From IMG/VR virus record IMGVR_UViG_3300030333_004777, positions 1 through 38,258 of that record: 38,258 nucleotides of DNA. One strand, written 5' to 3'. Of the stretch, positions 23,201 to 38,258 are shown piece after piece. This DNA comes from a virus. Every line of letters begins with the position of its first letter. Position 1 is the first letter of the stretch. Under the pieces are notes generated by a model, which did no database searches, was not told the DNA's origin, and worked only from the letters and a program-made list of their open reading frames with translations. The position numbers and the translations under genes were made by a program.

Positions 23201-25567
23201 CACACCACCAGTTGATGTTGAATCAAATTCAACAATTTGATGAACTAACTTCATCTTTGCTTTTGCTATGGCTGTTGTATTATTACCACCAATAACTTTT
23301 ACTGTGGGTGTTTCTTCGTAATCAGAACCTTCAGTCTCAACAAGTATTTCCTCTAGTGTTCCTTCTACTTGTGCAATCACTGATGCTGCAGCACCTGTAT
23401 GTCCATCCTGTGAGACTGTCAACTTAGGTGGGTTGACAATATCAAAATTAGAACCAGTATTTAATACCTCTACACTCTGCAAAGGTCCGAAATACACTAT
23501 GTCGGATGACTTGTAAGAATATGCTTCGACACCATTTGCAAATAGTCCGACACCACCCTGTACTGTCTTATCCTTTATTACACCAAATTCAGGCTCTCCA
23601 AATTTCCTTAGGATTTTTTGTGCACCCAAGTCAGTGCCATATAAGTTGGATGGTGTGAGTGTATGTGATGTCTGCGAACCAATATCGTTACCTATAAACG
23701 CAGTCAGGAACTGACCTCTTCTTACGTTCTCTCCAGTGTATGCTAATTTGACTGTATTACTATCAACTCTCTTTACGTAATATGATTCACCATCATTCAG
23801 GTTAGTCAATGTGCCTATACCAGATGAAGAATATGTTACTAAGTCACCATCATATAGGTCATGATCTGATACAGTAATCTCTACTTGTGTTGTATTGACT
23901 CCAACATTAGTAAAAGATCTAACTCTTTTTTGTGGATCAATTGACCAATGTGGCAAACTATTAGAAGCAACATGCACAGCACTTCCATCGTTATATGTGT
24001 TCTGCACGTCAGCTGTGCTATTTGCTTGTATTTTTAATTTTCTTCTTATCTTATATTTCTTTGTTGTATCAAGTGTAGGCACACTTACAGATATTGAATC
24101 GTCTTGATCTTCATCAAAAACGAATGTTATCGTACCATTCAACTTATTATCAGGGTCTGTTTGATCAATTACCTCTATCTCATCACCCACATAGAGAGAG
24201 AAGTTTGCTGCTGCAAGTTTGAAGTTGTAACTATTAGTGCTCTTGAGTGTATATCTCTCAATAGCATATGTCGATGCTGTATTGTATATCCATGTACTAA
24301 ATCTTAGGTCATTTTCAATTCTACCAAGTTGTTTGATATTAATTTCAGCATCTTCCTGTTGATTGATTGCAGATCCTTCAAATTTGTTGAGAACACCTAG
24401 CACATTGAATTTTACTGGTTTAGATAGATCACCATCCTCATACGAAGTTGCCACAATACCAGATCTTACTGTAGATCCAATACCACAAGGAGATGTCAGT
24501 GTTGATATACCTGTAAATTGTGTAAGTGATTTTCCTAAGTATGATATCTTTCTATTTTCAAAATCAATACTACCTGTGACACCAAACCCAACAGTAGAAT
24601 CCACATCTATCACTGTAGATCCCACAGGTGCTGATCTTGTTATAAATGTTTTACCAATCTGTTGAAACTTACCTATAACAGTGCCTTTTGACAAAGCGAT
24701 TTTGTAATATGTTTTGTTACCAAAGACTGCCCTCTCTACTCCTGTGATCGAACCACTGGTTTGTAGTGGTGTCGTTTCTTGAATTATACTACTACCAGAT
24801 ATCTTCAAAGGGTTACCAGATATCAATTCACATATAAGAACTTCATTGACTCTATACTCAGCGTCCGATGGACTTATCATATATTTTGACGGTTGAATCA
24901 TATCAACCTTCTCACCATATAAAGCACCAAATAGTATCTTGAATGCTTCTTCTGTTCCCTTTGATTTGTAAAAATCTTTTGATTGTCTAAGGAAATTACT
25001 TTGATCTAATTTATTAAATAAATTTCTCTCTGAAAAACCAGGTAAAATTTGTTTCTTTAGTTTTTTTAGAAACTCATTTAGGAATACATTACTAAGGTTG
25101 ATTACTTTAGAATCTACAGCATGTGTGCCTATACCTGTCTGTGAAAAAGTAAGATACTCAGGACTATTTGTTTTTCTATTATTCTCTATACCACTGAATC
25201 CTCTCACACACCCTGTAAAGGTAGTGCTACCTATTCCTGTATATGTGATGATCTCATTATCTATTTTGAGGAGTCCCCATTGATTCGGCCACCCTTTTGT
25301 AGAGTCAACATATATCGTAGTATCTCTACCATTTGCATACTGTGACAATGAAGTAATCCCAGTAAGAGTCTCAGGGTTTAGAAAATTAAGACTCTTATAC
25401 TCTACAAGATTATCAGCTATATCAATTGCTCCCCCTTGAAATTCTTGGGAAATATAGTACTGCTTCATGAACTCGCCAAAGCGAGGATTCTCATTGTCAA
25501 TTACCTCTGGTATTTGACTTTGAATTATTTCATGTACTTTTACTTTCGTAAGAGATGTTTGGATCAT
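17294..25567 (-). CDS. gp7: Giant baseplate wedge protein gp7 with YHYH-type domain
   Basis: A protein of 2757 residues, over 2.5 times T4 gp7 (1032). The N-terminal 240 residues (VKVHEIIQSQIPEVI, NPRFGEFMKQYY, and FYKSKGTEEAFKILFGALYG at about 200-220) match gp7 of T4-like cyanophages, the protein that starts wedge assembly. At about 1180-1265 the blocks GYAYDGHPIYGPF and DLDEHNGRFAATPEFPNG fit the YHYH domain, with its DGxPIYGP and LDExNGR signatures. The rest contains repeated YxVxKxDxxxxxLA and GxGY beta modules. The C-terminus (about 2600-2757) looks like a separate beta domain. It starts on the gp6 stop and ends on the next start, both as TAATG. Confidence 0.8.
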   Translation of the reverse strand: MIQTSLTKVKVHEIIQSQIPEVIDNENPRFGEFMKQYYISQEFQGGAIDIADNLVEYKSLNFLNPETLTGITSLSQYANGRDTTIYVDSTKGWPNQWGLLKIDNEIITYTGIGSTTFTGCVRGFSGIENNRKTNSPEYLTFSQTGIGTHAVDSKVINLSNVFLNEFLKKLKKQILPGFSERNLFNKLDQSNFLRQSKDFYKSKGTEEAFKILFGALYGEKVDMIQPSKYMISPSDAEYRVNEVLICELISGNPLKISGSSIIQETTPLQTSGSITGVERAVFGNKTYYKIALSKGTVIGKFQQIGKTFITRSAPVGSTVIDVDSTVGFGVTGSIDFENRKISYLGKSLTQFTGISTLTSPCGIGSTVRSGIVATSYEDGDLSKPVKFNVLGVLNKFEGSAINQQEDAEINIKQLGRIENDLRFSTWIYNTASTYAIERYTLKSTNSYNFKLAAANFSLYVGDEIEVIDQTDPDNKLNGTITFVFDEDQDDSISVSVPTLDTTKKYKIRRKLKIQANSTADVQNTYNDGSAVHVASNSLPHWSIDPQKRVRSFTNVGVNTTQVEITVSDHDLYDGDLVTYSSSGIGTLTNLNDGESYYVKRVDSNTVKLAYTGENVRRGQFLTAFIGNDIGSQTSHTLTPSNLYGTDLGAQKILRKFGEPEFGVIKDKTVQGGVGLFANGVEAYSYKSSDIVYFGPLQSVEVLNTGSNFDIVNPPKLTVSQDGHTGAAASVIAQVEGTLEEILVETEGSDYEETPTVKVIGGNNTTAIAKAKMKLVHQIVEFDSTSTGGVVNTDTDRFVFPQVHGFEHGEEIIYQTNGSTGIGIGITPGVLVDTAPYFVVKIDDFQIHISESKTKALAGIGTINLTANGGGQQSFKTIARRQKVDKILIEDAGLFKNREVHTSTGINTFTDTIVIPSHGFDNSEIVKYSSTESAIGGLTINSQYFIDKIDDDSFRLSNDKELSSYISLNDSGLGEHIFQDPPISIDISGRQGISTINATATPIIRGKISAVHVSNKGSDFGSTVINDNFKPVIEPTIGEKAFLQPFIVNGRVDQIIIKNGGENFFSADIVIEGDGIGAKAKANISNGVITSIDIIDKGAGYTQSQTTAKAKTPGQGAIFSSEVKKWTINQVERYAKFGDVKDDDGFLETPRDSDLGNPYVNYYVPRNLRNFLGDLGQDHSPILGYAYDGHPIYGPFAVVDGKKKYIESSYRKLASQRVDGPNINIYPAGFFIEDFTYVEGTGDLDEHNGRFAATPEFPNGVYAYYTTVEEIEVNNPNSPFNNSRTPLFPYIIGDTYHSKLQTFNTAYESNQDLDLPSLGLVRNTEPYNINEYEYVAQANRNTLINSKIEKTSSGDIERIDIVTAGKDYNVNDKLSFDNSLTGGFGATGKVNYVEGPGITTITSTITEIEDIVLVANGQQVTGIHTGPHGVADNSFVEILGISTTTHANLAARNTKIRLKERTTGLGVSMGSVNVTGLTTSVLITDWIPDVIKDYKFQINDIVQIDSEQLKIINFDVKNNRVEMIRAQFGTAGAAHTFGSTITRVESEFTYDLDKPVDLTTKQNTAYYFNAESVVGTGSTFGVGIGTTVTVSGRGGHQIVSFFNNETKDIFIPTRTIYMPNHPFKTGDRVEYNPGAGTSLTYQTDAMKRVAGAFKRPLPPEVFIQAIDKNLVGIVTTQTGISSSLDRVMFSGNVGVGNTHSFKTKRDDVVTGTLRIISTTATSPNHTFEVEDSLELTIVSSATSSVTAVYDPGSRYVSIGSSINPPISLITGDTLEIDTSDSSLENTKLQFFLDQDFNKPFVGTGKSAIEVVNTGIPGNADSKTSIHFTNRVPDILYYKFLPLQNTKVIEVNKGIKDYSKIFVNPSKFTGTHTILSKTNDTFSWNLFTIPEKVGYSSESQISYITNSLNVRGGVAKVLLTGGGTSYNDVPQVSVASTTGSSANLKAFGNSIGKLDKVQLVDTGYDYPSDLTLQPQAAVPQVLFLKDNFAVDSVAITSTGRNYLTPPDFVVYNSKSDTVNENAEFEAELTGGSVSNVKVIFAGGNLSSGDVELFAVNNSNGIGIISCTYTEPNVTLRLQTPSTGFTTAVPLPFEVGDKVFVENTGVTTGNGYNSADYGYQSFTLTGINTAFGNINEATLTYAVDKDPGIHDLGKYGVVVKDKDLAKFKVNLIESTFLNGEPVVSSSGKESKVIIGKGKTRNVLRIDSLVGFSTGDTVTGKFSKAGGTIDSSQAYEGYFTLDTSSEKAFGWERDTGKLNEFYQRVQDNDYYQNFAYSLKSSVGINSWSEPVDSLAHIAGFKKHSDLLINSVPNVAPQPAGISSGAGNVVVIDAQASLLDRHNFDLVTENTNLDQNISDEVSFLTGQFADGLICKSNRVLELDDISPQFYSDPNLIRSVELDTFDMLTGGPGGDGINAVKYYAQVVLDVASGISFNATQYSEFVVFHDGSIAYLNTYSELADDDDLGEFITETSGPLASVLYVPTNSALEYDITFHKEIITNAVGVASTAFGLVEYKGITKTLAVSNTLQDVDEVDATMYKSGSILVSARGPNGEKEIDEFLWLIDGSNNVLFTNTGKMDADTDIGTFSINNVNDVLKLQHTPPVGMAVTVSSLTRAVGVAQTHGNSGIVDEYHIGDTMLDSSFVQLPANGSPSEQIISQKAYANYTTCRYHVEIHNTTDDEYSVFIVGSNAFGGNATYNTYNHLYTDDTMKRNMSNTSIHITSTMSQLKFLPVANKAYTIRTHEIKIDKPDSSANNTTVTY

Positions 25568-27696
25568 TAGTATCCGTATCCGCTACTGGATGATGAACTT
25601 GAACTTGATGATGTAGTTGATGTCGAAGTTGTAGACATAGGTGTCGATGATGTATCTATCGCACTTGTTGGGGTGCTTGTTATTGGTAGACTATCAGGGG
25701 AATGAGATGCACCTGTCATTTTATTGCCATTTGGCATGGTGTGGAAGGCACCATAATAAGGTTGTCCGTTCACATATCCAACCAGTGTGCTGGCAGTGGA
25801 TGTGCTAGTTATGATTGCTCCTCTTACTTTGGCACCATTAGTGTAACTAGATTGAGGATTATATCTTGTTCCAGAAGTATTTGCTCCTGTTGATATAGGA
25901 TCTTCTCTCATCAAGAAATTACTATTCGCAACGTCAAACTGCAAATACAATTCCTTCCTTGCTAACACATCATTTGATTGAGGTATAGCTTGAATCTCAA
26001 CAATGTTATCAGACAATACAGTTGATGTTATATTCACTGTGTCTAAAATTACTTCACCCTTCTCATAATCTACAGATCCAAATGATGAAGATAATATCTT
26101 GACTGATGAGTCAGAATCAATTTGGAATAGGAACAATGATCCCTTATTACCTGAAATGAACTGATCAGAGAAGTATACAGTCCCCTGTACTCCAGATACA
26201 CTGAATCCAGTAGACTTTATATTATAACTTGATTCATTTCTATGGAAGGTGTTATCAAAACATATTTCATATTGTGCAAACTGATTGATTTGAGCAACTA
26301 AGTTTCTTCTGATCCTTATAGTGGTGATATTTGATGTGATAGAATCATCGACTCTATCAATAAGTGACAATACTTTACTATACTTGAATCTACCACCAAA
26401 CTTATTCAACTCAGGACCGCTTGCAAAAGAGGTCAATGAAGAAATGACATCTGTTTTGAGATTTTCTGGATCACCTATGAAGTTTGCGTTGTAGTAAACA
26501 TAACTATCAATCTCGACATATAAAAACTTCAAATCAATCAACTCAGGCACAATACCTGCTACAGAGTAACTTTTCAATGATGATAATATTTGTTTTTTGG
26601 TAAACTCTGATAAGAAAGAACCATTCTTAGGTTTCGCTGCTATGTACACCCTACCATATTTGGGTGGTGTCAATTCTTCACCCCCAAAGGCACTTACAGA
26701 CTCTATGTTTGCATACACTGAGGGAATTATTGCTTCGTAATCACTTGCAGTCACTGCTCTATGTTGAGACGAGTAAAGTCTAGGAGCATAGTATCTGACA
26801 CTGCGTAAATCCTCTATTTCATCACCATTTTCTGAAGGATACTGTGGTGATAGAGTTGTTGTAAGGTTAGTTTCAGTGGCACCGTCTTCATCTTTTACAA
26901 TACCTGCAAAAGACACTCTAGCAACACCATTACCATTCTTACCCTCAGTCTTGATGTATGATATATCAACAACATTGCCATTATCTAATTTTGCACCGAA
27001 TATACCATCTCCAAATAGCACCTCGTACTTCTCATCCGTGGTTTCTTGTATAAGATAAATGTTTGATGTAGAGGTGACACCTATAATATTATCTACAAGT
27101 TTATACTCAGTGGCAGTTGTGCTTGCGTTATTTTCTTTTACATTTATCCTTATTGTAGATGTGTCTACACCATTGTTAGGTATTATAAATCTTTGATTGG
27201 GTTGAGAATCATTTATTACGAATGTTGATTTGAGATATTGTCCTTGAAACATTTCAATAGATCCAACTGCTGTGCCATCTAATGCAGTGCCTGTCACTTT
27301 TTCTGGTATAGAGAATATGTAATTTACATTTGACACAGTTCCATTTGCAATTACACCTGGTTGAAATGTAACAGTTGTTGTTGTCGTTGATATACCTGTC
27401 ATATTATAATCAACGAGCATTTTTGCTGCTCTCTTAGACCTAGGCACGTAACCTATATTTCTTGCTAAAGAAACAACGTTTTCTCTTAGTGTTGCACTGT
27501 CAATGAATGTCTCATTGACTATCATGTTACTATTGTACGCTGTCGTATATGAATTATATGCTAATAAGTTTACTATAACTGATAGGTTAGATCCCTCGAA
27601 ATCCATATCCGAGAAATTAGAGTTTTCTCTCAGATAATTCTTTATAGAAGATTTTATATCTTCAAAATTTAGGTTTGTGAATTGTTGCAGTGCCAT
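25567..27696 (-). CDS. gp6: Baseplate wedge protein gp6
   Basis: A protein of 709 residues; T4 gp6 is 660. The N-terminus (FTNLNFEDIKSSIKNYLREN, then DFEGSNLSVIVNLLAYNSYTTAYNSNM and LRENVVSLARNIGYVPRSKRAAK) is the conserved gp6/baseplate J start. The blocks ETTDEKYEVLFGDGIFGAKLDNG and YYAPRLYSSQHRAVTASDYEAII are typical of the J-like core. gp6 forms the ring that ties the wedges together. The C-terminus is unusual: a YYGAFH...MTG segment at about 638-664, then a Ser/Thr tract ending in ten Ser and GYGY. It is coupled to gp25 upstream and gp7 downstream by TAATG overlaps. Confidence 0.9.
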   Translation of the reverse strand: MALQQFTNLNFEDIKSSIKNYLRENSNFSDMDFEGSNLSVIVNLLAYNSYTTAYNSNMIVNETFIDSATLRENVVSLARNIGYVPRSKRAAKMLVDYNMTGISTTTTTVTFQPGVIANGTVSNVNYIFSIPEKVTGTALDGTAVGSIEMFQGQYLKSTFVINDSQPNQRFIIPNNGVDTSTIRINVKENNASTTATEYKLVDNIIGVTSTSNIYLIQETTDEKYEVLFGDGIFGAKLDNGNVVDISYIKTEGKNGNGVARVSFAGIVKDEDGATETNLTTTLSPQYPSENGDEIEDLRSVRYYAPRLYSSQHRAVTASDYEAIIPSVYANIESVSAFGGEELTPPKYGRVYIAAKPKNGSFLSEFTKKQILSSLKSYSVAGIVPELIDLKFLYVEIDSYVYYNANFIGDPENLKTDVISSLTSFASGPELNKFGGRFKYSKVLSLIDRVDDSITSNITTIRIRRNLVAQINQFAQYEICFDNTFHRNESSYNIKSTGFSVSGVQGTVYFSDQFISGNKGSLFLFQIDSDSSVKILSSSFGSVDYEKGEVILDTVNITSTVLSDNIVEIQAIPQSNDVLARKELYLQFDVANSNFLMREDPISTGANTSGTRYNPQSSYTNGAKVRGAIITSTSTASTLVGYVNGQPYYGAFHTMPNGNKMTGASHSPDSLPITSTPTSAIDTSSTPMSTTSTSTTSSSSSSSSSSGYGY

Positions 27697-28100
27697 TATA
27701 ACCTAGTTGGTTCGAGAATGAAATTGACTGATTGGGTTGGTGTATTGAGTCCAACAATATCATAAAATATAGTTACATCAATAGAGTTTTCGTCAGGTGT
27801 AGAAAGAAATTTTACATCTGTCAGGATTACTCTGGGTTCAAAATTCTTTATACTTGTCTCAATTTCCTTTTGAATCGGATCAACATAATCATCACTAGCA
27901 AGTTCAAACAGTGAACCGCTTATACGTGATCCTAACAAGCGATTAAAAAATACTTCTCCCGTTTGTATACGAACTAGATTCTGTACAGAACGTTTTATAG
28001 CATCTTCATTTTTCAGCACAAGAATATCATCCGTTACGGGATGTTTTTTGAAAGATAAAGAAATATCTTTGAATCCTTGTGAAAAAGTCTGTGCTGGCAC
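27696..28100 (-). CDS. gp25: Baseplate wedge protein gp25 (gp25/lysozyme-like fold)
   Basis: A protein of 134 residues, close to T4 gp25 (132). It has the family layout: FKDISLSFKKHPVTDDILVLKNEDAIKRSVQNLV, then GEVFFNRLLGSRI with the GERxFxPxxG-like turn, then the EIETSIKNFEPRVILTDV helix and strand near the C-terminus. gp25 sits at the junction of wedge and sheath and is related to type VI secretion TssE. The start is a GTG at 28098-28100, chosen because the family begins here and no upstream in-frame ATG exists. Two late promoter motifs lie 22-38 bases upstream, so this gene opens the late wedge operon. Confidence 0.9.
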   Translation of the reverse strand: MPAQTFSQGFKDISLSFKKHPVTDDILVLKNEDAIKRSVQNLVRIQTGEVFFNRLLGSRISGSLFELASDDYVDPIQKEIETSIKNFEPRVILTDVKFLSTPDENSIDVTIFYDIVGLNTPTQSVNFILEPTRL

Positions 28101-28121: not shown

Positions 28122-28138
28122 TATTTATCATTATTTAG
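28122..28138 (-). promoter_or_regulatory. Paired late promoter motifs GATAAATA and CTAAATA before gp25
   Basis: GATAAATA at 28122-28129 and CTAAATA at 28132-28138 lie side by side between a terminator and the gp25 GTG. GATAAATA matches the NATAAATA late consensus of T4-like phages; CTAAATA is a close variant also seen before the gene at 1-262. The location, straight after a terminator and before a 23-kb structural run, is where a late promoter is expected. Confidence 0.65.
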
Positions 28139-28353: not shown

Positions 28354-29106
28354 CTATATGATTCTAGTTTTCTCGTGCCCGACTCTACACTGTGGATCTA
28401 CCCATATTTCAAACCCTGCTTTTATCGCATCAAGACAAAATGATACGTCCTCACCACACATATCTTGTACCTCACCAGAGTCAAATACCTGCATTTGTGG
28501 GGCAAACCATGGATACTTCATCTCTGGATGTTCAAAGACACCCTTCTTGATGAGTAACCAACCAAACCCAGAGTAGTCAACAGTAAATGGTTTGCGTCTC
28601 TTGACAATTCCTTCAACCATCTCATGATTCATAACTCCACCATTTTCCTTGAAATCATCCTCTTCTAACCAATGTGCACATGATGTAGTTCTACCATCCT
28701 CAGTTGCATACCAACCACCTGCTATGTCTTTATCCATAGCAAGCACACGATAGAAACTCTCGTTAGAGAATATTATGTCACTATCAATCCATAGTTGATA
28801 ATCATAGTTGAGTTTGCCATCCCAAGGTAATTGGTCAGGTCCTCGTAATACATTCGCACCAAGACATTTGCATCTTGCAAAGTTTACCATAGAACTATAG
28901 TCTTGTGCTATCTGTATATTTGCTCCGTTCTGTACCAACTCAAAGCAGAGTGATACGAAATTCTTTAGGAAGATGTATGATACACCTCTACCAGGTAAAC
29001 AGAAAACAACACTCTTTCCTTGTAAGAGTTTCTTTGCTGCTTCGATGTCAAATTCATCTTTCTTCTCGATTGGTGGTTTAGAAACCACCTTAAATCCTTT
29101 AGCCAT
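28354..29106 (-). CDS. GT-A type glycosyltransferase-like protein
   Basis: A protein of 250 residues. Features of a GT-A glycosyltransferase are: KSVVFCLPGRGVSYIFLKNF (nucleotide-side strand and loop), the D-x-D metal site in DYQLWIDSDIIF (D108, D110), AGGWYATEDG (about 129-138), the acceptor-side GEDVSFC (218-224), and H244 in CRVGHEK, the likely third metal ligand. The donor and acceptor sugars are not evident. Similar proteins are common in T4-like cyanophages, where they may glycosylate the host surface or virion proteins (inference). A near-consensus sigma70 promoter lies directly upstream, so it can be expressed early and apart from the cassette before it. Confidence 0.75.
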   Translation of the reverse strand: MAKGFKVVSKPPIEKKDEFDIEAAKKLLQGKSVVFCLPGRGVSYIFLKNFVSLCFELVQNGANIQIAQDYSSMVNFARCKCLGANVLRGPDQLPWDGKLNYDYQLWIDSDIIFSNESFYRVLAMDKDIAGGWYATEDGRTTSCAHWLEEDDFKENGGVMNHEMVEGIVKRRKPFTVDYSGFGWLLIKKGVFEHPEMKYPWFAPQMQVFDSGEVQDMCGEDVSFCLDAIKAGFEIWVDPQCRVGHEKTRII

Positions 29107-29127: not shown

Positions 29128-29156
29128 ATTATAACACTTTATATAGCGTCTATCAA
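29128..29156 (-). promoter_or_regulatory. Near-consensus sigma70 promoter
   Basis: TTGATA (29151-29156) and TATAAT (29128-29133) are separated by exactly 17 bases; only one base differs from the sigma70 consensus. The -10 box lies in the 32-base gap before the glycosyltransferase, and the -35 box inside the end of the SGNH gene. Transcription would begin near 29120. Host-type promoters of this kind serve early genes in T4-like phages. Confidence 0.75.
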
Positions 29157-29780
29157 CTCAATAACTTTATTTGCCATTATCTTGTGCCCTTCTGCACTTG
29201 GATGCCCACCATTCACACCTTGAGCATAGTTTTGCGGATCTACCCTATCCATCCCTAATAATTGATTTTGTATCAAGACAGGATTGTAATCTTTACAGAG
29301 TTGCCTCCAATATCCGACGTGACCATTATAAAATTCTTTAGGTCTCAGAATGCTAGGTTCAAAGTGATCTGCAATCATGGAAACATATTTTTGACCAACA
29401 CTCTTACAATATGCGTCAAATAAAAAAATGTTTTTCCACATGTTCTCAACACCAAGCACATCATTGTATATTTTTGTATAATAATTTCTTTGAGTATTAG
29501 TCTTTATATTTTGTGGTGTGTATAACTGAGGATCTTTATATCGATCATAAAACTCTATTCTAGATGTCACTGTAAATTGTAATACAACTATATCTGTTTT
29601 TGTGTTTTGTAGGTATTTGATTGTATTTCTAACAATATTATCATTACTAATACCACATTTGGATATGTTGACGTGACCACATTTATAGTGATTAGAAACA
29701 AGGGTGCTATATCTCTCTCCTATTCTATTGTGTAGTTCATCACCCCATGTGATACTACATCCACTAAAACACAGTGACAT
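29139..29780 (-). CDS. SGNH/GDSL-type hydrolase
   Basis: A protein of 213 residues. Block I is SGCSITWGDEL with S9 as nucleophile, block III is GISNDNIVR with G43 and N46, and block V is GGHPSAEGH with H193. These are the conserved positions of SGNH hydrolases, which remove or transfer acyl (often acetyl) groups, typically on polysaccharides. The residue three before the catalytic His is Asn190, where Asp is usual; this may tune or weaken the triad. An in-frame ATG at 29783 is equally possible, and a longer frame to 29807 is less likely. It overlaps the carbamoyltransferase by about 17 bases, so it belongs to the cassette. Confidence 0.8.
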   Translation of the reverse strand: MSLCFSGCSITWGDELHNRIGERYSTLVSNHYKCGHVNISKCGISNDNIVRNTIKYLQNTKTDIVVLQFTVTSRIEFYDRYKDPQLYTPQNIKTNTQRNYYTKIYNDVLGVENMWKNIFLFDAYCKSVGQKYVSMIADHFEPSILRPKEFYNGHVGYWRQLCKDYNPVLIQNQLLGMDRVDPQNYAQGVNGGHPSAEGHKIMANKVIELIDAI

Positions 29781-31140
29781 CATACTTATGCGAAAATTGT
29801 ATTGCATCTCCTATAGTGTTCACCATAGGTTTACCTTTTATATTCAAAGATGTATTCAATAATACAGGACATCCAGTACGTTCATACCAACACTCCAGTA
29901 TGGGTCTTAGAATACTCTCTGAGTCTTTTGGTACTGTTTGTACCCTAGCAGATCCATCGACGTGTATACAGGCAGGTATCGCCTTCTGCTGCTTACATTT
30001 ATAAACGTAAGACATGTACCTAGATTCTCTTGGCATATCAAAGTAATCTTGGCAATGTTCCTCAAGTATTGCAGGTGCGAAGGGTCTGAACTTATCTCTT
30101 CTCTTGATATCATTTACTAAGTCTTTTGTTCCAGCTTCCCTTGGATCCGCCAATAAACTTCTATTACCGAGAGCACGAGGACCAAACTCAGCACGGCCAT
30201 TTGCAACCCCCACGACTTTTTCTTTGAGAAGTGCATCGACAACTCTCCTTGGATCACACAACTTCTGTATATTATACCCTAGGTAAGGACTGAAGGCAAC
30301 CTTCTTACCATATGCTAGACATGCTGCCCCCAGAGCACCCCCTGCGTCACCAGGACAAGGCATAATCCATAAGTTATACATTTCCCTCAATCCAGTGTTT
30401 ACTACACAGTTGAGGGCAACACCACCCCCATAGCATATGTGTTTGCTATATTGTGATGCTTTTGCAAATATGTTATTGAGTTCTAATTGTAGTATTCTCT
30501 CTGCACTCTTTGCGATATCACACTTATCATAGTCACCCAACCTCGCACCCTTGTGATTATTCTTATGCAACTGCCTTTCCACCACGTTCATGTTCACAGG
30601 ATTACCAAACGCTGCCATACCCATAAAGATGTACTCTTCGTCTAGTGGACGCAATCCCGCCCATTTTGTAAGTGCTGAATACCACAAACCTATAGATTGC
30701 GGATACCACTGCGACCATCTCTTCTTATAGCAAGCGTGACCATTCTTATACTCAGCAGTCCATATTGATGTAGTATCCCATTCTCCTATGCTATCAACAA
30801 CAACTATCGCTGCTTCTTCAAATGGTGATGTTTGAAACGCTGCTGCAGCGTGTGACTTGTGGTGACTATGATATTCTGTAGGTTTCAAGGACAAATGTCT
30901 TGGTCTTCTCCACGCTTTCTGACCTGCGAAAAACTGCCGTGTTCTCTTCAACCATGGTCTTTCATAGAATGCTATCTTACCATCATGACATAATAACTGT
31001 GCTGTAGACGCAGCAGTTATATCAAGATGTTTATCATGCTTTATCTTTGAGTATCTCTCGGAGTGAGTAGCATAACAAATCCTTCCATCATTGACTACAG
31101 CGACTGCTGCGTCATGGAATCCTTCACTGAATCCGATCAC
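29764..31140 (-). CDS. Carbamoyltransferase, NodU/CmcH/TobZ family
   Basis: A protein of 458 residues. It begins IGFSEGFHDAAVAVVNDG, has HSHHKSHAAAAF (91-101) with the metal-binding HxxSHA, then GGGVALNCVVN (238-248) and PGDAGGALGAA (263-273) of the Kae1-like domain. The C-terminal domain has EFGPRALGNRSLLADPR (318-334) and NTSLNIKGKP, both diagnostic. Such enzymes transfer carbamoyl from carbamoyl phosphate via carbamoyl-AMP to a sugar or antibiotic hydroxyl. It is shorter than usual (about 550-600), mainly in the insert between the two domains. Start is GTG at 31138-31140; it overlaps the preceding gene by 17 bases. Cyanophages are known to carry such genes; the acceptor is unknown. Confidence 0.85.
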   Translation of the reverse strand: MIGFSEGFHDAAVAVVNDGRICYATHSERYSKIKHDKHLDITAASTAQLLCHDGKIAFYERPWLKRTRQFFAGQKAWRRPRHLSLKPTEYHSHHKSHAAAAFQTSPFEEAAIVVVDSIGEWDTTSIWTAEYKNGHACYKKRWSQWYPQSIGLWYSALTKWAGLRPLDEEYIFMGMAAFGNPVNMNVVERQLHKNNHKGARLGDYDKCDIAKSAERILQLELNNIFAKASQYSKHICYGGGVALNCVVNTGLREMYNLWIMPCPGDAGGALGAACLAYGKKVAFSPYLGYNIQKLCDPRRVVDALLKEKVVGVANGRAEFGPRALGNRSLLADPREAGTKDLVNDIKRRDKFRPFAPAILEEHCQDYFDMPRESRYMSYVYKCKQQKAIPACIHVDGSARVQTVPKDSESILRPILECWYERTGCPVLLNTSLNIKGKPMVNTIGDAIQFSHKYDVTVF

Positions 31141-32080
31141 GTAACCTGTTTCGCCTCCTCATATCTTTCATATCTCTAATTATAACATATTCTTTCGCTA
31201 CTTTCTCATACTCATCTCGTTCAGGATAATTACCTGGATGTGTAGTGTCTCGTGGTATGTCATAGTCAAAACCAAAAATCTCCTTATAGTCATCTGTATC
31301 CATATTGAAGTATGTAATTTCTATTCCTTTGTGTTGTAAATACTTTTCAAGTTTTCTAAAATTTCTCACAAAACCATCAAGATGTCTCCAAATTACATTT
31401 TTATCTTCTTTTATAATCTTTGCTCTCTTGAGTTTACTTGCAAAACAATCGATCAAATTCTCTTTGTATGGTAATATATTTTTTCTTGATTTGTATATAC
31501 TCAATACATATCTCTCAAGTTCATCCACTTCGCTTATATCTGGAGCATCAAAAACTCCTTTTCCCATAATAGTCAGAGGATTGAAAACTATATCCACATC
31601 ACATAGTTCATCAACAATCGGTCTGATACATCTTGTATTACTCAAAATGTATGGTTCCAAAAAAGTTTCAAGATAATTACCAGATGGTGTTACTGGGAAA
31701 TGCTTTTGTAATTCTGCAAACCACTTATTAGTAAAGAAGACATCAACAGGGTCTTTATCTTTCATCAGAATGTCAGGAGGATGTCTTTCGTCTAAATTTC
31801 CGAAATATTCAGTTATAAGGTTTTCTCTCTCTTCAAAAGAACTATTGTGTGCATCTTGCAAATAACGATGAGTTTCTAAAACTTCGGTTTTAGTTTTTAC
31901 CCGTGTCTCTACTTTTGATTCTCCTTTCCTTACAAAAAAAGTTTCTTGTACTTTTTTATTGCGTTTGTAAAAATAATACCTCCCTGCAGTTTTGGTGTAT
32001 GACTTGTTGTTGATATCACATAATTTCATCAAATGCATCTTACCCATATTAGGTAATGCCCAATAATTACAACCAATCAT
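31124..32080 (-). CDS. Protein of unknown family, copy 2 of a tandem pair
   Basis: A protein of 318 residues, clearly paralogous to its upstream neighbour over its whole length. Shared blocks are NYWA-PNMGKMH near the N-terminus, NKSYTK, MKDKDPVDVFFT, DELCDVD, PYKENLIDCFASKLKR, YFNMDxDDY-E-FGF, THPG-YPER and a basic end MKDMRRR. The family was not recognised. No P-loop, DxD or HxD motif is seen, so it is not a simple copy of the sulfotransferases around it. The many conserved Trp, Asn, Asp and His residues suggest an enzyme or a binding protein. The ATG at 32080 has a GGAAGA site upstream; a GTG at 32092 is the alternative. It overlaps both neighbours by 14-17 bases. Confidence 0.7.
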   Translation of the reverse strand: MIGCNYWALPNMGKMHLMKLCDINNKSYTKTAGRYYFYKRNKKVQETFFVRKGESKVETRVKTKTEVLETHRYLQDAHNSSFEERENLITEYFGNLDERHPPDILMKDKDPVDVFFTNKWFAELQKHFPVTPSGNYLETFLEPYILSNTRCIRPIVDELCDVDIVFNPLTIMGKGVFDAPDISEVDELERYVLSIYKSRKNILPYKENLIDCFASKLKRAKIIKEDKNVIWRHLDGFVRNFRKLEKYLQHKGIEITYFNMDTDDYKEIFGFDYDIPRDTTHPGNYPERDEYEKVAKEYVIIRDMKDMRRRNRLRDRIQ

Positions 32081-33155
32081 ATATTCTTCCACGCCTTCTC
32101 ATGTCTTTCATTTTCCTCATCGCCAAATACTCCTTCGCTATAGATTCAAACTTTTCTCGTTCAGGATAGTCGCCAGGATGTGTATTGGTGCGTGGTAGTT
32201 CATTCTTCTCAAACCCAAATGTTTCCCCATAATCATCTCTATCCATATTAAAGTATACTGGTTCTATGCCATTTTTCTTAAAGTACAATTCGATTCTTCT
32301 TACTTGCTTTACAACAGTGTCAAGGTATTTCCATAATATTCCCTTATCAATCTCATATAAGATCGCAGCATTTTCAGTTTTATGCACCTGTAATACGTGT
32401 TTATGACTGAATCTTTTCAACTTACTTGCAAAACAATCAATCAGATTTTCTTTGTATGGAATGACATTCTTTCTATCTTTATATAATTTCAAAACATGTT
32501 TTTCTACTTGAGTGGCATCAGTAAGTTCTCGTTTTGGATGAGCACCTAACATATGTCTCCCCATGATTGAAAATGGATCAAAGATAAAATCAACATCACA
32601 TAATTCATCTACAAAAGGCACTATACTTGGATGCAGTCCGTCTACCTTCAAATATGGTTGTAAAAAAGTATCAAGATAGTTGTTGCCTGGTGACACTGGA
32701 AAATATTTTTGCTGCTCCCTGAAATACCTATCAGTAAAGAATACCTCGACAGGATCTTTATCTTTCATCAGTTCATCAGGAGGTTTTCTGTCATTTACAC
32801 CCCCAAAATATTTCACCATCAAATCACCACCAGCTTCACTGGTGTTAGAAAACATTTTTGTATTATCATTAGGACCACCACATACCTCATTCAAAAAGGC
32901 ATGTTTTTTACCAGAGATCTTATCAGCTACCTCACCAAAAGTCATTTTACTTTTGATTGGTGTCTCTATCTCGGATTGTCCTCTTCTCAATACGAATGTC
33001 TTTTCTATTCTTTTCCTATACAGATCAGGGTCATGCCATTGTTTGTAAAAATAATATGGGTGTTTGATTTTTGTATATGACTTCCTATTCACCTCAATAA
33101 GTTGCATCATATGCATCTTACCCATATTAGGTGTTGCCCAATAATTAATCCTCAT
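32067..33155 (-). CDS. Protein of unknown family, copy 1 of a tandem pair
   Basis: A protein of 362 residues beginning MRINYWATPNMGKMHMM, paralogous to the gene downstream. Compared with that copy it has two main insertions: one near residues 80-110 (GKKHAFLNEV region) and one near 255-270 (KHVLQVHKTENAA). The blocks PYKENLIDCFASKLKR and YFNMDRDDYGETFGF are almost unchanged. No family or motif was recognised. The start was set at 33155 by alignment with the paralogue; ATGs at 33158 and 33164 are in frame. It overlaps the 30-residue gene upstream by 11 bases. The context among sulfotransferase-like and carbamoyltransferase genes suggests a role in the same pathway (inference). Confidence 0.7.
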   Translation of the reverse strand: MRINYWATPNMGKMHMMQLIEVNRKSYTKIKHPYYFYKQWHDPDLYRKRIEKTFVLRRGQSEIETPIKSKMTFGEVADKISGKKHAFLNEVCGGPNDNTKMFSNTSEAGGDLMVKYFGGVNDRKPPDELMKDKDPVEVFFTDRYFREQQKYFPVSPGNNYLDTFLQPYLKVDGLHPSIVPFVDELCDVDFIFDPFSIMGRHMLGAHPKRELTDATQVEKHVLKLYKDRKNVIPYKENLIDCFASKLKRFSHKHVLQVHKTENAAILYEIDKGILWKYLDTVVKQVRRIELYFKKNGIEPVYFNMDRDDYGETFGFEKNELPRTNTHPGDYPEREKFESIAKEYLAMRKMKDMRRRGRIYDWL

Positions 33156-33237
33156 CATCTTCATAGATGTACGGATCCTGACGACGCAGTTTCCATAACT
33201 TGTACTCACCTATGATCCAGTTCCAAAGTTTTTTCAT
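33145..33237 (-). CDS. Microprotein, 30 residues
   Basis: A 30-residue frame, MKKLWNWIIGEYKLWKLRRQ followed by a DPYIYEDDED end. It has an amphipathic, Trp-rich, basic N-terminal half and an acidic tail, a design I recognise from tiny cyanophage proteins. The ATG lies 2 bases after the stop of the sulfotransferase-like gene (33240), and the stop overlaps the next gene by 11 bases, so it fills an otherwise empty gap. The function is unknown. A membrane-edge or protein-binding peptide is plausible from composition only. Confidence 0.6.
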   Translation of the reverse strand: MKKLWNWIIGEYKLWKLRRQDPYIYEDDED

Positions 33238-33239
33238 TT

Positions 33240-34139
33240 TTATAACCATGACTGAGGTATATATCCGAATTCTTTATCCCATGCTTCATATACTTTCGCA
33301 AGTTTGTTCATACCCCAAATAAGGTCGTCATCTGCCAATTCTTGTAAATCTGGAGGTGTATTGTCGTAGTTCACGCCAATATACGGACAATATACATTTG
33401 CATGGACTATATCAATATCACGTCCTAGAAACTCACTGAGACCACTCTGATCGTACCAAAACTCTTCCATGATAATTGGATAAGTGTCAAATACACTTTT
33501 ATAGTTTTTATAGATTTTTAGGTAGTCACAATTGTGATCTAACTGTTTTGACTTCCAATATTCAATACTATCCTTATATCCACTTATATCTACTGTGCCA
33601 CCACTCCATTCCATAGGATGTTGACCTGTATTGTATTTGTACTCTACTGACGCTTCAGAATACCATCTTCTTACTGGATTACGGAATATAACTGTTGCTT
33701 TGACTGTAAAGTGTTTTTCCAACTCATTTTTGATAGAAGTAAGAAAATCGGAGGGTAAAATCGAATTACTATTAGAAAAATCTGATAATCCAATATATCC
33801 CTTATTTTTGTGACTTTCCCATAGATCAAGATAATATTTTATGTAAGTATGGATGGTTGTTCGCTTTTTGAAGATATTTTGCAAATATGCCAAATCAAGT
33901 TGTTTAGAATTACAATCAATCGCAGATTGCACTCTATACTTGTGTCTTTCGTCAAAATATCGTTTTGCTTGCTTTGGATTGCTTTGTAAAAGGTAAATGT
34001 AGTATAATATGTTATTTTCGTGAACAAGACCGTGATGTGCAATTTTTTGACGACTGTGAATCGTTTTACAATAAGGTTTCGTTCCAGACCACGCTACCCC
34101 TGCATTTATTAGTAATAAAGGTTTATTTGCCCCACTCAT
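33240..34139 (-). CDS. Sulfotransferase-like protein, type A, copy 3
   Basis: A protein of 299 residues. The 5'-PAPS loop position reads INAGVAWSGTKP (11-22), with Trp in place of the basic residue usual before S-G-T. The 3'-phosphate motif is intact: RNPVRRWYS (153-161), fitting RDPxxRxxS. Between them lies GLSDFSNSN (117-125), shared as DFSNxN by the type A copies. Further on are IIMEEFW, then SEFLG and the end FGYIPQSW, all conserved in the array. The fold and PAPS use are inferred; sulfotransferases move sulfate from PAPS to a hydroxyl or amine. It overlaps the upstream copy by 17 bases (ATG inside its last codons). Confidence 0.75.
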   Translation of the reverse strand: MSGANKPLLLINAGVAWSGTKPYCKTIHSRQKIAHHGLVHENNILYYIYLLQSNPKQAKRYFDERHKYRVQSAIDCNSKQLDLAYLQNIFKKRTTIHTYIKYYLDLWESHKNKGYIGLSDFSNSNSILPSDFLTSIKNELEKHFTVKATVIFRNPVRRWYSEASVEYKYNTGQHPMEWSGGTVDISGYKDSIEYWKSKQLDHNCDYLKIYKNYKSVFDTYPIIMEEFWYDQSGLSEFLGRDIDIVHANVYCPYIGVNYDNTPPDLQELADDDLIWGMNKLAKVYEAWDKEFGYIPQSWL

Positions 34140-35046
34140 CTGGTATGTACCCGAATGTTTTCTTGAATTCCTTATATACTTGATCCATTAGTCGACGACA
34201 CTGCTTATACTGATCATCAGTGATATCTACTTTGTCAGAATTATATTGATCACTCAAATATTCATATTTTGGTGGATTAGAACCCATATCAGGATAATAT
34301 ACATTCTCATGCACCTTTGTAAATTTATATTCTAAGAAATCCGATAATTGCTCTAATTGTTCTTTTTCATTATCAGGATTCCAGAATTCTTCCATTATTA
34401 TTGCTTTTACATTCTCAGCACCCCATATGGTAGCATGTCTCCTGTATATTGAAGAGTAATAAGCATTTGGTTCAAATGCTCCTGACAACCATTGATACAT
34501 GACTTCTATTGGTGTCTTATCTCCAAATTCATTTCTCTTTACGCACTTATTAGCCACAGAGAACAATCTTCTAACAGGATCTCTGAATTGCATGGTCACC
34601 TTGACATCAAAGTGCTCTAGAAGGCTATCTTTGATCGTCATCATGAAGGGAATTGATAAAATAGCATTTTGATTAGAAAAATCACCTACCCACTCGTAAT
34701 CATGCTTACAATTTTCCCAATGTTTCTTGTAATACCAAATATAATTTTCAATAGATAGGGAATCATAAAAAAATCGGTTTTCTTCCTCTTTAGTCCACTT
34801 ACCTACGACATATGGTGATAGGTGTGTTAGTAAATCTGGTTTTTTTCGTTTTTTTGCAACATCTGGTTTAGGTCTCTTCCCATCCATACGAATATTGTCT
34901 TCACCTGACATCATATTGGAAAGGTACATGTGTTCCTTAGTATGACCAGTATAAACGCACTTATGATCCCATGAAACAGTATAATGGAAGGGGGATGTTG
35001 CAGAAAAACAAGTTCCGACATTGAGAAGTAGTTTTATCTTTCCCAT
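34123..35046 (-). CDS. Sulfotransferase-like protein, type A, copy 2
   Basis: A protein of 307 residues. The 5' loop reads NVGTCFSATSPF (9-20), with Phe before S-A-T. The 3'-phosphate motif is RDPVRRLFS (155-163). DFSNQNAIL (122-130), IIMEEFW and the end FGYIPDEW mark it as a member of the same array. Residues 45-80 carry a basic stretch (KRPKPDVAKKRKKP) not found in the sister copies; it may bind an acidic acceptor or form a loop. The start overlaps the upstream copy by 13 bases. Sulfotransferase function is inferred from the PSB motifs and not proven. Confidence 0.75.
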   Translation of the reverse strand: MGKIKLLLNVGTCFSATSPFHYTVSWDHKCVYTGHTKEHMYLSNMMSGEDNIRMDGKRPKPDVAKKRKKPDLLTHLSPYVVGKWTKEEENRFFYDSLSIENYIWYYKKHWENCKHDYEWVGDFSNQNAILSIPFMMTIKDSLLEHFDVKVTMQFRDPVRRLFSVANKCVKRNEFGDKTPIEVMYQWLSGAFEPNAYYSSIYRRHATIWGAENVKAIIMEEFWNPDNEKEQLEQLSDFLEYKFTKVHENVYYPDMGSNPPKYEYLSDQYNSDKVDITDDQYKQCRRLMDQVYKEFKKTFGYIPDEWGK

Positions 35047-35951
35047 TGACTCGGTATGTAATTAAAGTATGATTTAAAGTTATTATAAACCCATGATAAC
35101 TTATTTCTACCGTATTGTAAATCATCATCAGACAAATCTTGCATATCGGAACTCCATTGATCTCTTAGACCCTCTATTTCTGGTCTGCTTGTTCCCCTCT
35201 CTGGAAAATATACGTTATCATGCATTCTGTCAATTTTCATACCTAGAAAATCAGATAACCCACTTGGATCTTCCCACACTTCTTCCATAATAATAGGATA
35301 CACCTTTTTAAAAGCTGATTTCCAATTATTCAAATTTTTGATGTAATCTGGCACCAGATAAGGTTCTGGACGATCTAATTTTGATTTCCAAAAAGAAATA
35401 CTGTCAGGATACTGCTGCTTTATCATCTGCCAATGAGCAAGTTTTGCTGGATCTCTTATTTTCCACCCCTCATAAGCTTTATCATTTTCAGTGCTCATTT
35501 TATACCACGCTGAAATTTGTGAATATGATCTACGAACAGGATGCCTCCAAATCATCGTAACTCTTACATCAAATTCTTCTTCTAACGCAGGTGCTATCTC
35601 TTTGAGAAAGTAATCAGGTAGATCACCATTGCTATTTGAAAAATCACAAACACCTTTATGACTATCTACTACCTTACTCTTCATATACTGAATATACCAA
35701 GGTAATGTGGTATTTTTTCTCACAAAATCAAACTTTCTATGTTTATGATCAGTGTGCCAATAGTATCTCGCATGAACTGGTTTATATTTTCTCTCATACA
35801 AGTAATATAACATATTAGGTTCTGTCGTCGAACCCTTTTTATCGCTTGTGAAGTTATGATGACCATAACCCACGTTATCAAGAGTGTAGCATAGAGGTTT
35901 TGTGGCAGACCACCCTACCCCTGCGTTTATATGAAGGATTGGTTTAGTCAC
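35034..35951 (-). CDS. Sulfotransferase-like protein, type A, copy 1
   Basis: A protein of 305 residues. The 5' loop reads INAGVGWSATKP (8-19) with Trp before S-A-T; the 3'-phosphate motif is RHPVRRSYS (136-144), with His in place of Asp or Asn. VCDFSNSNGDLP (101-112), IIMEEVW, LSDFLG and the end FNYIPSQW are shared with copies 2 and 3. It starts at a GTG (35949-35951) that overlaps the 2OG oxygenase by 8 bases; no ATG start is better placed, and the downstream sequence aligns with the family start. The acceptor is not evident. Confidence 0.75.
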   Translation of the reverse strand: MTKPILHINAGVGWSATKPLCYTLDNVGYGHHNFTSDKKGSTTEPNMLYYLYERKYKPVHARYYWHTDHKHRKFDFVRKNTTLPWYIQYMKSKVVDSHKGVCDFSNSNGDLPDYFLKEIAPALEEEFDVRVTMIWRHPVRRSYSQISAWYKMSTENDKAYEGWKIRDPAKLAHWQMIKQQYPDSISFWKSKLDRPEPYLVPDYIKNLNNWKSAFKKVYPIIMEEVWEDPSGLSDFLGMKIDRMHDNVYFPERGTSRPEIEGLRDQWSSDMQDLSDDDLQYGRNKLSWVYNNFKSYFNYIPSQWER

Positions 35952-36537
35952 ATTCTATAAAATAATCAAAGTCCGATCTGTGAGATCTTATCTCATCAGG
36001 ATCAGCAAAAAATATAGTCAAGTTCACCCTTTCAGTGTCACCTGCCATATATCTGTGCCATGTTTTTGGTCTTGGATTGTGTGAGAACAATCTATTTGGT
36101 TTCCACTCTACTTCTAGTTCCCTTTTTGTCGGTTGATCTGGTTGACCGTGATCTCCGTCATCGTTTGTTGACGGATTGTCGCATAAGATAGTACCAATGT
36201 TTTTTTCAGGACTCACATATAATATTGAAGTATGTATTCTTGAAGTATTGTCGATATGAGTTGGATATTTTACATGTGGGGGTACTATTGCCCAATGATT
36301 CAATTTTACTAATTTTTTATAATCTCTATGTTCTTGAAAATTCATTATATCCTTTGTAATTTCAGGAATCAAATCATCTTTTACATATCTCGCATACTTA
36401 TTGCTACGACAATTGATACCTTCTTTTTTATACCTTTCAAACTCAATTTTCGCTAAATCTTCAATAACTTTGAATCTTTCTGGTGATAAAAAATTATCAA
36501 TAAGACCATATTCCCAAGGATCATAATAAATTTTCAT
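35944..36537 (-). CDS. 2-oxoglutarate/Fe(II)-dependent oxygenase
   Basis: A protein of 197 residues. The iron ligands are visible: H94 and D96 in YPTHIDNTS, and distal H161 in KTWHRY, with R170 nine residues later in ERVNLTIFF to bind 2-oxoglutarate. The spacing fits the double-stranded beta-helix fold, and the length is normal for phage members. These enzymes hydroxylate or otherwise oxidise small molecules, sugars or proteins. Many T4-like cyanophages carry them. It lies between the type B and type A sulfotransferase-like genes; it starts 1 base after the upstream stop and overlaps the next gene by 8. A hydroxyl made here could be an acceptor for the neighbours (speculative). Confidence 0.8.
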   Translation of the reverse strand: MKIYYDPWEYGLIDNFLSPERFKVIEDLAKIEFERYKKEGINCRSNKYARYVKDDLIPEITKDIMNFQEHRDYKKLVKLNHWAIVPPHVKYPTHIDNTSRIHTSILYVSPEKNIGTILCDNPSTNDDGDHGQPDQPTKRELEVEWKPNRLFSHNPRPKTWHRYMAGDTERVNLTIFFADPDEIRSHRSDFDYFIECD

Positions 36538-36538
36538 A

Positions 36539-37450
36539 TTAGATGTGCCAGTAATCAAATTTATAATCTAAAGGTTCTCCCCACTGCCTAGGTAAAGAAC
36601 CATATCTATCTTTCCATAAATCGTATTCAGCTTGATATTGGTCTTTAATAGAGTTATACTTGTCAGTTGTAAGTTCCTCTAATTCCTGTCCGAATGCCTG
36701 ACAGGGAACATCATCATCATGTTCAACAAGATGACCTTTGTCAGGAGAGTAAAGGTTTTTCCACAGATCAGTTACAGGATGATCTAAGAAGTCTGAGAGT
36801 TGTTTTTTTGCATCTCCCTCCCACAGTTCTTCCATAACAGTAACATGTACGTCATCAAAGATTGATGAAATGTGGTCGATCACCTTTGTATAATTCATAA
36901 CAACAAGTGGTCGAGGAGTTTTGAGTTTACTATAAAGATATTCTGAAAAAGCACGACGAACGGGATCTCTTGCAATCAGAAGAACCTTGACATCAAACTC
37001 AGACTTGAGTGTATCATAGAATTCCTTAAGATCCTCTCTCATTGTTTTGTAACCCATATAACAATCACCTACAGACTTATAACCTTTACTAATAACATGA
37101 TCATGAAGTGCATGATAGAAATCCATGTACTTTGATGTGGTGTGGTCACCATCCATCAGTTTAGTAAAGTGTGATACAGGAAAATCACTAAGTGGTTCAA
37201 GATCCACAGTGAGATTCATCCGATGAGTGCCTGGTTCGTCACTCTTATAGTTCTCCCATGTACCATTACGCACATGTTCGTAGATGTCGGAAATATTTCT
37301 AGATGATTCAGGTCTACCTTCTGGTCCAAGATACTTAAACTGCTTTGTATACCCAAAGTGAGCATACTTAGCATTACGTTGAAGAGTGTATACCAGAGGT
37401 GAAGTTGCTGACCAGCTAAATCCACCCACGAGGAGCATTTTTGGTTTCAT
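36539..37450 (-). CDS. Sulfotransferase-like protein, type B, copy 2
   Basis: A protein of 303 residues starting MKPKMLLVGGFSWSATSPL. The 5' loop has Trp before S-A-T; the 3'-phosphate motif is RDPVRRAFS (161-169). The segment FYHALHDHVISKGYKSVGDC (111-130) is almost the same in the upstream type B copy. TVMEELWEGD, then LSDFLDHPVTDLWKNLYSPDKGH and the end YGSLPRQWG follow. Compared with type A, the DFSNxN block is replaced by GDCYMGYKT. The start is an ATG that overlaps the previous stop as ATGA (37447-37450), preferred over longer in-frame starts. A TATAAATA at 37520-37527 lies 70 bases upstream, inside coding sequence. Confidence 0.75.
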   Translation of the reverse strand: MKPKMLLVGGFSWSATSPLVYTLQRNAKYAHFGYTKQFKYLGPEGRPESSRNISDIYEHVRNGTWENYKSDEPGTHRMNLTVDLEPLSDFPVSHFTKLMDGDHTTSKYMDFYHALHDHVISKGYKSVGDCYMGYKTMREDLKEFYDTLKSEFDVKVLLIARDPVRRAFSEYLYSKLKTPRPLVVMNYTKVIDHISSIFDDVHVTVMEELWEGDAKKQLSDFLDHPVTDLWKNLYSPDKGHLVEHDDDVPCQAFGQELEELTTDKYNSIKDQYQAEYDLWKDRYGSLPRQWGEPLDYKFDYWHI

Positions 37451-38258
37451 GAGTAAGTTATTGGTTGTCCCCAATGCAGAGGAAGAGAACCGAAGGTATC
37501 TTCCCATGAATCGTAAATGTATTTATATTTCTCCTTGTAATGATAATAATTTTCAGGAGTTAGTTCTCCCAGAGACTGCCCGTACGACTGACAAGGTACA
37601 TCTTTATCAAATTTTATGAGGTGACCTCTGTCTGGAGCATATAGGTTTTTCCACAGGTCTGTGATAGGGTAATCTAAAAATTGTGATAGTTGTTTTTTAG
37701 CAGTGCCATCGCCTTCCCAGAGTTCCTCCATGACAATTAGATGCACGTTATCTTCGCCAAATAGTTTATGAGCAAGCTTGAGATTGTCTATGTAATTAGG
37801 AAAACTTAAATCACATGTGCAAATTTCTTTGTCATCCATATGTCTTTGTGTTTGAAAAAGATAATATGAGTTAGCTCGACGTATAGGATCTCTTGCTATC
37901 AATAGAAACTTTACATCAAACTCGGATACAAGTGTTTTATATAACCCACTTAGACTTTTCTTTCGGGTTTTCCATCCAATATAACAATCACCTACAGACT
38001 TATAACCTTTTGATATAACATGGTCATGAAGTGCATGATAAAAATCTACCAACTTTCTTTCTGTTCGATCACCAGTCATAAGTTTGGTAAAGTATGATAC
38101 AGGAAAGTCACGAAGAGGTTCATAATCAATAGTCTCATTCATTCTATGACTACCAGGTTCATCACTCATATAATTTTCCCAAGTTCCATAAAAGACATGT
38201 TTATATACATCCCAAATACTTCTTGTTGTGTGAATATTATGGTCTTTTGCAGGTAAGT
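37447..38258 (-). CDS. Sulfotransferase-like protein, type B, copy 1 (5' end cut by window)
   Basis: The frame is open to the window edge: 29 further codons precede the ATG at 38169, and these (for example SIWDVYKHV and GTWENY) align with the downstream type B copy, so the gene continues beyond the window and its 5' PAPS loop is not visible. At least 269 residues are present. The 3'-phosphate motif is RDPIRRANS. FYHALHDHVISKGYKSVGDC, IVMEELWEGDG and YAPDRGHL, and the end FGSLPLHWG, match copy 2. It ends in an ATGA overlap with that copy. High similarity along the whole length indicates a fairly recent tandem duplication. Confidence 0.75.
   Translation of the reverse strand, partial: LPAKDHNIHTTRSIWDVYKHVFYGTWENYMSDEPGSHRMNETIDYEPLRDFPVSYFTKLMTGDRTERKLVDFYHALHDHVISKGYKSVGDCYIGWKTRKKSLSGLYKTLVSEFDVKFLLIARDPIRRANSYYLFQTQRHMDDKEICTCDLSFPNYIDNLKLAHKLFGEDNVHLIVMEELWEGDGTAKKQLSQFLDYPITDLWKNLYAPDRGHLIKFDKDVPCQSYGQSLGELTPENYYHYKEKYKYIYDSWEDTFGSLPLHWGQPITYS

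Follow-up and report, generated by a model that had tools for sequence, protein, structure and literature searches.

Genes for Nod factors encode a carbamoyltransferase (NodU), a sulfotransferase (NodH) and other transferases that place such substituents on one glycan. Phage-encoded sulfation has, to our knowledge, hardly been tested, and we know of no report of an array among the sulfotransferases annotated singly in phages. Single sulfotransferases of the Sulfotransfer_3 type are found in cyanophages and OM43 phages (S-SCSM1, P-SSM7, S-SRM01), where their function was also called unclear (PMC10580990). The region between gp46 and gp25 has been listed among the hot spots of cyanophage genomes (Sullivan et al. 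2010, PMC3037559). Here we analysed the first 38,258 bases (the window) of the 43,101-base IMG/VR record IMGVR_UViG_3300030333_004777, in which an array of sulfotransferase-like genes is situated within a putative glycan-decoration island upstream of the baseplate genes gp25 and gp6. Its products share a phage-borne sulfotransferase fold with the single enzymes mentioned above, but belong to another family. The island occupies the same genomic place as this cyanophage hot spot and lipopolysaccharide (LPS) gene clusters, as judged also from the maps of S-CAM9 and S-SSM7; these cultured phages, however, bear a gene of the size of PHROG 1574 before gp25 (77% identical in S-SSM7), with small hypothetical genes upstream and no decoration island. 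As in Nod-factor decoration, the predicted substituents are of the same kinds and the carbamoyltransferase is recognized by Pfam, but no chitin-oligomer synthesis genes were recognized and the likeness is one of resemblance only. A tblastn search of the phage collection with five copies of the family retrieved no isolate phage, with relatives only in records of one single-particle genome, and no paper on such arrays was found in a literature search outside which most subscription journals lay.

An earlier note on this DNA, made from the letters alone, had described five sulfotransferase-like paralogues in a row in a phage. The five corresponding frames (A1, A2, A3, B1 and B2; Table 1) proved homologous, with profile E-values from 1e-56 to 1e-124, far beyond chance, while the count itself was limited by the window edge: the full record carries seven copies, four of type A and three of type B. 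The motifs that the note had listed hold, and all seven share 21 invariant columns that include R-x-P-x-R-R-x-x-S, E-x-x-W and the P-x-x-W end. Neighboring genes overlap by 17, 13 and 8 bases, and by 4 bases if B1 starts at the ATG at 37450 instead of 37507, in agreement with the 4–17 bases noted before. The note's view of the genes as one unit was likewise bounded by the window edge, and the set is not strictly co-directional, since the seventh copy, A4, is divergent and lies head to head with B3, their start codons 10 bases apart. The 5' part of B2 lies outside the window, where the gene is broken by a scaffold gap of 10 N (contig 38259-38268); its N-terminal piece continues past the gap at contig 38255-38341 in a different frame. 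The 2-oxoglutarate (2OG) oxygenase placed by the note between the copies is supported by the H-x-D...H...R motif, which all 11 members of its family retain, and the gene of the window had no Pfam or PHROG match of its own.

Relatives gathered from IMG/VR amounted to 195 full-length proteins from 75 loci, 71 representatives of which were aligned. The AlphaFold2 model of A3 based on this alignment reached a predicted local distance difference test (pLDDT) score of 93.0 and a predicted template modeling (pTM) score of 0.91, and in a Foldseek search against the PDB its ranks 1–22 were all sulfotransferases. The sulfotransferase core, the absence of which the note had set beforehand as grounds for giving up the assignment, was accordingly present in the model, and other P-loop families such as kinases and GTPases ranked only below the sulfotransferases in the Foldseek list (E of at least 0.03). 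VIA-align 2 ordered the solved structures in three tiers: the heparan sulfate 3-O-sulfotransferases (3-OST-1, 3-OST-3 and 3-OST-5), NDST1 and 3rnl at Z 15.0–16.3, the olefin-synthase, curacin and tyrosylprotein sulfotransferases at Z of about 11–12.4, and the cytosolic sulfotransferases at Z of about 10–10.8. In an independent comparison by sequence profile, the 3'-phosphate region matched that of 3rnl (2.6e-7) and HS3ST5/3A1 (about 2.5e-4). The viral copies share with HS3ST1/3/5 and the NDST1 domain the predicted fold (Z 15–16), the 3'-phosphate motif and a stretch running from R-D-P-V-x-R-x-x-S to an L-x-x-F-L block; they differ in being only 12–17% identical, in lacking Lys or Arg at the usual 5' loop position, and in being phage-borne and multi-copy. 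Likewise, 3rnl, a bacterial sulfotransferase from Alicyclobacillus acidocaldarius, gives the best PDB sequence match and a Z of 16.1, but this match covers about 100 residues only, at 17% identity. Taken together with the glycan-sulfation reading discussed below, we consider it somewhat better than an even chance that the viral copies constitute a family of carbohydrate-type sulfotransferases, so far known from uncultivated viruses only.

Residues were counted over 196 aligned rows, corresponding to the 195 copies with the reference copy counted twice. The 3'-phosphate motif R-x-P-x-x-R-x-x-S (R136, P138, R141, S144) was retained in at least 191 of the 196 rows, and the loop that joins strand 1 to helix 1 showed G11, S/A/C15, A/G16 and T/S17 in nearly all 71 representatives. 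Glu44, a candidate for the catalytic Glu that follows strand 2, was found in 176/196 rows, the K-E block having been aligned by pattern. In carbohydrate and cytosolic sulfotransferases, a Lys or Arg heads the 5' phosphosulfate loop. In all but four of the 195 viral copies (191/195), a Lys or Arg occupies position 18 or 43 and may supply the charge missing from that loop (see below). Regarding the profile search proposed in the note, the result was mixed: B2 exceeded the cut-off of Sulfotransfer_1 (PF00685) and was the only window copy to do so, the family matching 3 of the 71 members at E ≤0.01. No member (0/71) matched a PHROG at E 0.001.

The record belongs to a phage, as had been proposed, and this can be narrowed to a T4-like cyanomyovirus on the basis of its predicted proteins, which include gp25, gp6 and further baseplate proteins of the T4-like type. 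The nearest relatives of gp6 are those of Marine virus AG-345-D19 (64%), followed by Synechococcus myoviruses (about 50%). A search of 46 records identified genes of the psbA/psbD type on four, among them the 192-kb contig, the 122-kb contig and AG-345-D19, and AG-345 designates a sort plate of extracellular particles from a Pacific cruise (PMC6122165). Because of the gp6 relatives, the psbA/psbD-type genes and the AG-345 origin, the host is most likely a marine picocyanobacterium, an assignment that reaches the virus of the window through its relatives.

When the related loci were compared, the array appeared as the part that varies within a conserved island, predicted to decorate glycans, upstream of gp25-gp6 (Table 1). 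Gene order was largely conserved in the 50 loci of uncultivated viruses that hold gp25: gp6 and gp25 are followed by a glycosyltransferase-like gene (PHROG 1574), usually an SGNH gene, a carbamoyltransferase (49 of the 50 loci) and then a variable stretch in which sulfotransferase-like genes are accompanied by further SGNH genes, 2OG oxygenases, an HpcH aldolase and a family named here Cfam. The copy-number survey suggested by the note gave 1–9 sulfotransferase-like genes in these loci. PHROG 1574 genes occur in 105 phage records, mostly cyanophages. The SGNH esterase-like family is also expanded (145 genes across 51 loci, with as many as 10 in a single locus), and the model of the window copy has the SGNH fold, with its best solved matches among TesA and GDSL/carbohydrate esterases. 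Cfam adjoins the carbamoyltransferase in the locus maps. The 192-kb contig bears six sulfotransferase-like copies at three places; one of these (locus L033) is situated outside the island, with a gp46-like gene on one side and a nucleotide-sugar epimerase on the other.

Table 1. Features of the array and its surroundings (window positions unless marked contig; aa, amino acids; ORF, open reading frame)
Feature	Position	Strand	Evidence or remark
Copy A1, sulfotransferase-like, 299 aa	33240..34139	-	ORF, alignment
Copy A2, sulfotransferase-like, 307 aa	34123..35046	-	ORF, alignment, profile E 5.8e-112
Copy A3, sulfotransferase-like, 305 aa	35034..35951	-	Copy used for the structure model
2OG-Fe(II) oxygenase-like gene	35944..36558	-	ATG probably 36537; H-x-D...H...R motif
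Copy B1, sulfotransferase-like	36539..37507	-	ORF, alignment; homology favors ATG at 37450
Copy B2, sulfotransferase-like	37447..38258 in window; spans about 37447-38341	-	Pfam Sulfotransfer_1 24.6 bits, cut-off 22
Copy B3, third type B	contig 38338-39219, just past window	-	Found reading on beyond window
Copy A4, fourth type A	contig 39230-40144, just past window	+	Found reading on beyond window
Cfam, function not assigned	32067..33209	-	Family of 19 genes in 18 loci
Second Cfam paralogue	31124..32092	-	Same family
NodU/NolO-like carbamoyltransferase	29764..31140	-	Pfam Carbam_trans_C 1.6e-55, Carbam_trans_N 1.4e-33; PHROG 1601 6.8e-95
SGNH-fold esterase-like protein	29139..29807	-	AlphaFold2 pLDDT 95.1
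Glycosyltransferase-like, conserved before gp25	28354..29106	-	PHROG 1574 1.9e-114; weak match to phage glycosyltransferases
Late-promoter-like motifs preceding gp25 at the island's end	28122..28138	-	CTAAATA and GATAAATA
Baseplate wedge genes gp25 and gp6, a conserved flank and host-group marker	25567..28100	-	PHROG 261 and 219

The note had left two explanations for the number of copies, selection for several acceptors or for variation, and the evolutionary analysis distinguishes between them. In a tree of 127 proteins, the nearest relative was a paralogue from the same virus for 7 of the 108 copies from multi-copy loci, compared with 3.0 under shuffled labels, and recent amplification for variation was rejected for most copies on these grounds. 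The copies A1, A2, A3 and A4 all have their nearest relative in another virus, at 77–94% identity; A1 orthologues about 80% identical are present in loci L003-L006 (dN/dS, the ratio of nonsynonymous to synonymous substitution rates, was 0.18 against L003), and the A2 orthologue in L005 is 88% identical. Over 60 cross-virus pairs the median dN/dS was 0.11, the sole value above 1 resting on a dS of 0.01. By these comparisons, most copies are paralogues of old standing whose orthologues are found in other viruses, and they are under purifying selection. Cross-virus nearest relatives and low dN/dS indicate that they are kept as distinct working proteins in combinations that differ by virus, which favors several fixed activities, and hence several acceptors, over variation generated within a genome. 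Only the type B trio looks like a comparatively recent tandem duplication: its members group more closely with one another, and the DNA of B1 is about 76–79% identical to B2 and B3 over parts. Regarding a cellular origin, two narrow pattern scans of genome contigs found no relative, the patterns being too narrow to settle the origin.

The function that we propose, in the same joint judgment of somewhat better than even given above for the family, is that of a glycan-decoration module sulfating a polysaccharide at several positions with host 3'-phosphoadenosine 5'-phosphosulfate (PAPS). During infection, each copy would move sulfate from host PAPS onto its own site in a surface glycan, and other groups would be attached or taken off by the SGNH, carbamoyl and 2OG enzymes. 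The surface polysaccharide of the host itself ranks as the most likely target, at rather less than an even chance. Remodeling it could hide or alter receptors, leading for example to superinfection exclusion or to lowered re-adsorption of progeny, and copy-number differences between viruses would then reflect different host glycans. A precedent comes from Campylobacter, where phage reception depends on a single capsule substituent and bacteria that lose this group become resistant (PMC5808241). If true, a conserved multi-enzyme island would allow direct tests of the ways in which cyanophages alter glycans of the cell surface or the virion, and it offers a source of many diverged carbohydrate-sulfotransferase-like proteins with an unusual donor site, outside PHROGs and poorly covered by Pfam.

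Several observations weigh against this function. The head of the 5' phosphosulfate loop, located by motif and position in the model and not by inspected superposition, is W, F, H or Y in 195/195 copies and basic in 0/195. The counts at positions 18 and 43 are striking, but the Lys18/Lys43 exchange rests on only 2–3 changes on the tree, with no usable independent pairs, and compensation between the two is not claimed here. The type B copies examined have Q or V in place of the common Glu44, and Pfam coverage is poor, with 7 matches among the 71 members at E ≤0.01. No phage adenosine 5'-phosphosulfate (APS) kinase was detected in 25 records; a supply of PAPS by the phage was rejected on this basis, and the donor would have to come from the host. 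The lack of a consensus late promoter is not proof that expression is early. Finally, fold, motifs, selection and context are computational results, and it is from them that we infer catalysis, donor, acceptor and biological role.

The strongest alternative, which we regard as possible but less favored, retains the same enzymes and places the acceptors on the virion, in glycans of tail or baseplate fibers, where sulfates would alter adsorption or particle stability. The position of the island directly upstream of gp25-gp6, with many genes co-directional with them, is consistent with this, as is a window gene at 2831-4306 matching phage tail-fiber families. However, a late promoter separates the island from gp25: late-promoter-like motifs precede gp25 in 45–49 of 50 loci and only 3–7 of 207 sulfotransferase-like genes; as a rule, late promoters in front of the array were not found. 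The late promoter of gp25 therefore does not appear to serve the island as well, a pattern that speaks somewhat for a role within infected cells, without proving timing. Glycosylation of such virions is also not known to us, and remodeling of the host surface is somewhat preferred over virion glycans. An extension applicable to either acceptor, and a shade more doubtful than the virion target itself, is that these uncultivated T4-like cyanophages carry an exchangeable set of sulfotransferases, non-canonical in their phosphosulfate site, by which sulfate and other groups are written in combinatorial patterns on the host or virion glycan, the copy set defining the glycan "type" of a lineage.

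Another explanation is that the sulfotransferase fold and a 3'-phosphonucleotide-type donor are used to move a different group onto the glycan, as O-methyl phosphoramidate transferases do in capsule loci. In its favor, no copy has the basic 5' loop residue, and the NCBIfam O-methyl phosphoramidate transferase profile matches 2 of the 71 members (best E 2.9e-4). In contrast, a search of 18 records with this profile (NF058596) gave at best 15 bits, where the cut-off is 600, over part of the profile and with no match in the record of the window; no window copy matched it at E 0.1, and no phosphoramidate pathway genes were recognized in the locus maps, making this explanation improbable. Hypermodification of phage DNA bases, with the carbamoyltransferase, 2OG oxygenases, glycosyltransferase-like and sulfotransferase-like enzymes acting on nucleobases, appears very unlikely: carbamoyltransferases of the NodU/TobZ type and 2OG oxygenases do occur in phage base-modification pathways, but we know of no sulfated DNA bases, the SGNH expansion has no obvious place in such a scheme, and no thymidylate-synthase-like hydroxymethylase was recognized among the annotated island genes of the window, where no profile search for one was made. 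Least probable of all are functionless relics or stuffer genes, a role once discussed for cyanophage LPS clusters (PMC3037559), given the dN/dS values above, motifs kept in nearly all copies and frames that are almost always intact.

Other genes in and around the island were also recorded. A defense function was rejected, as PADLOC gave only single, scattered and weak matches. For the SGNH genes, the own paralogue was nearest by BLAST identity in 0/135, and locus L002 bears further members at 7097-7684 and 9108-9821 (contig 40096-40683 and 42107-42820), along with an HpcH/HpaI aldolase (Pfam 2e-22) at 7677-8420 (contig 40676-41419, + strand), a gene present in the island in 11 loci. Cfam proteins have N-Y-W-A-x-P-N-M-G-K-M-H near their start and no Pfam match. 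A radical SAM-like protein (Pfam 1e-5, below cut-off) is encoded near the carbamoyltransferase and SGNH genes in L042, L043 (5899-7173) and others. At the other end of the window, the gene at 776-1516 (- strand) is weakly sulfotransferase-like (Sulfotransfer_3, E 7e-4 in six-frame search and 0.028 with hmmscan, below cut-off), is situated near a tail-fiber-like gene and has two relatives in AG-345-D19 (L080); it is followed by a nucleoside deoxyribosyltransferase-like gene at 1515-1919 (+ strand, Pfam 1.1e-6) and a nitroreductase-like gene at 2068-2919 (- strand, 4e-4, below cut-off). Some islands additionally contain Sulfotransfer_2-type genes, a separate family (L009 1333-2070, L013 3413-4150, L026 12731-13666 and L031 12716-13672), with the canonical I-P-K-A-G-G-T-S loop visible in those of L009 and L013.

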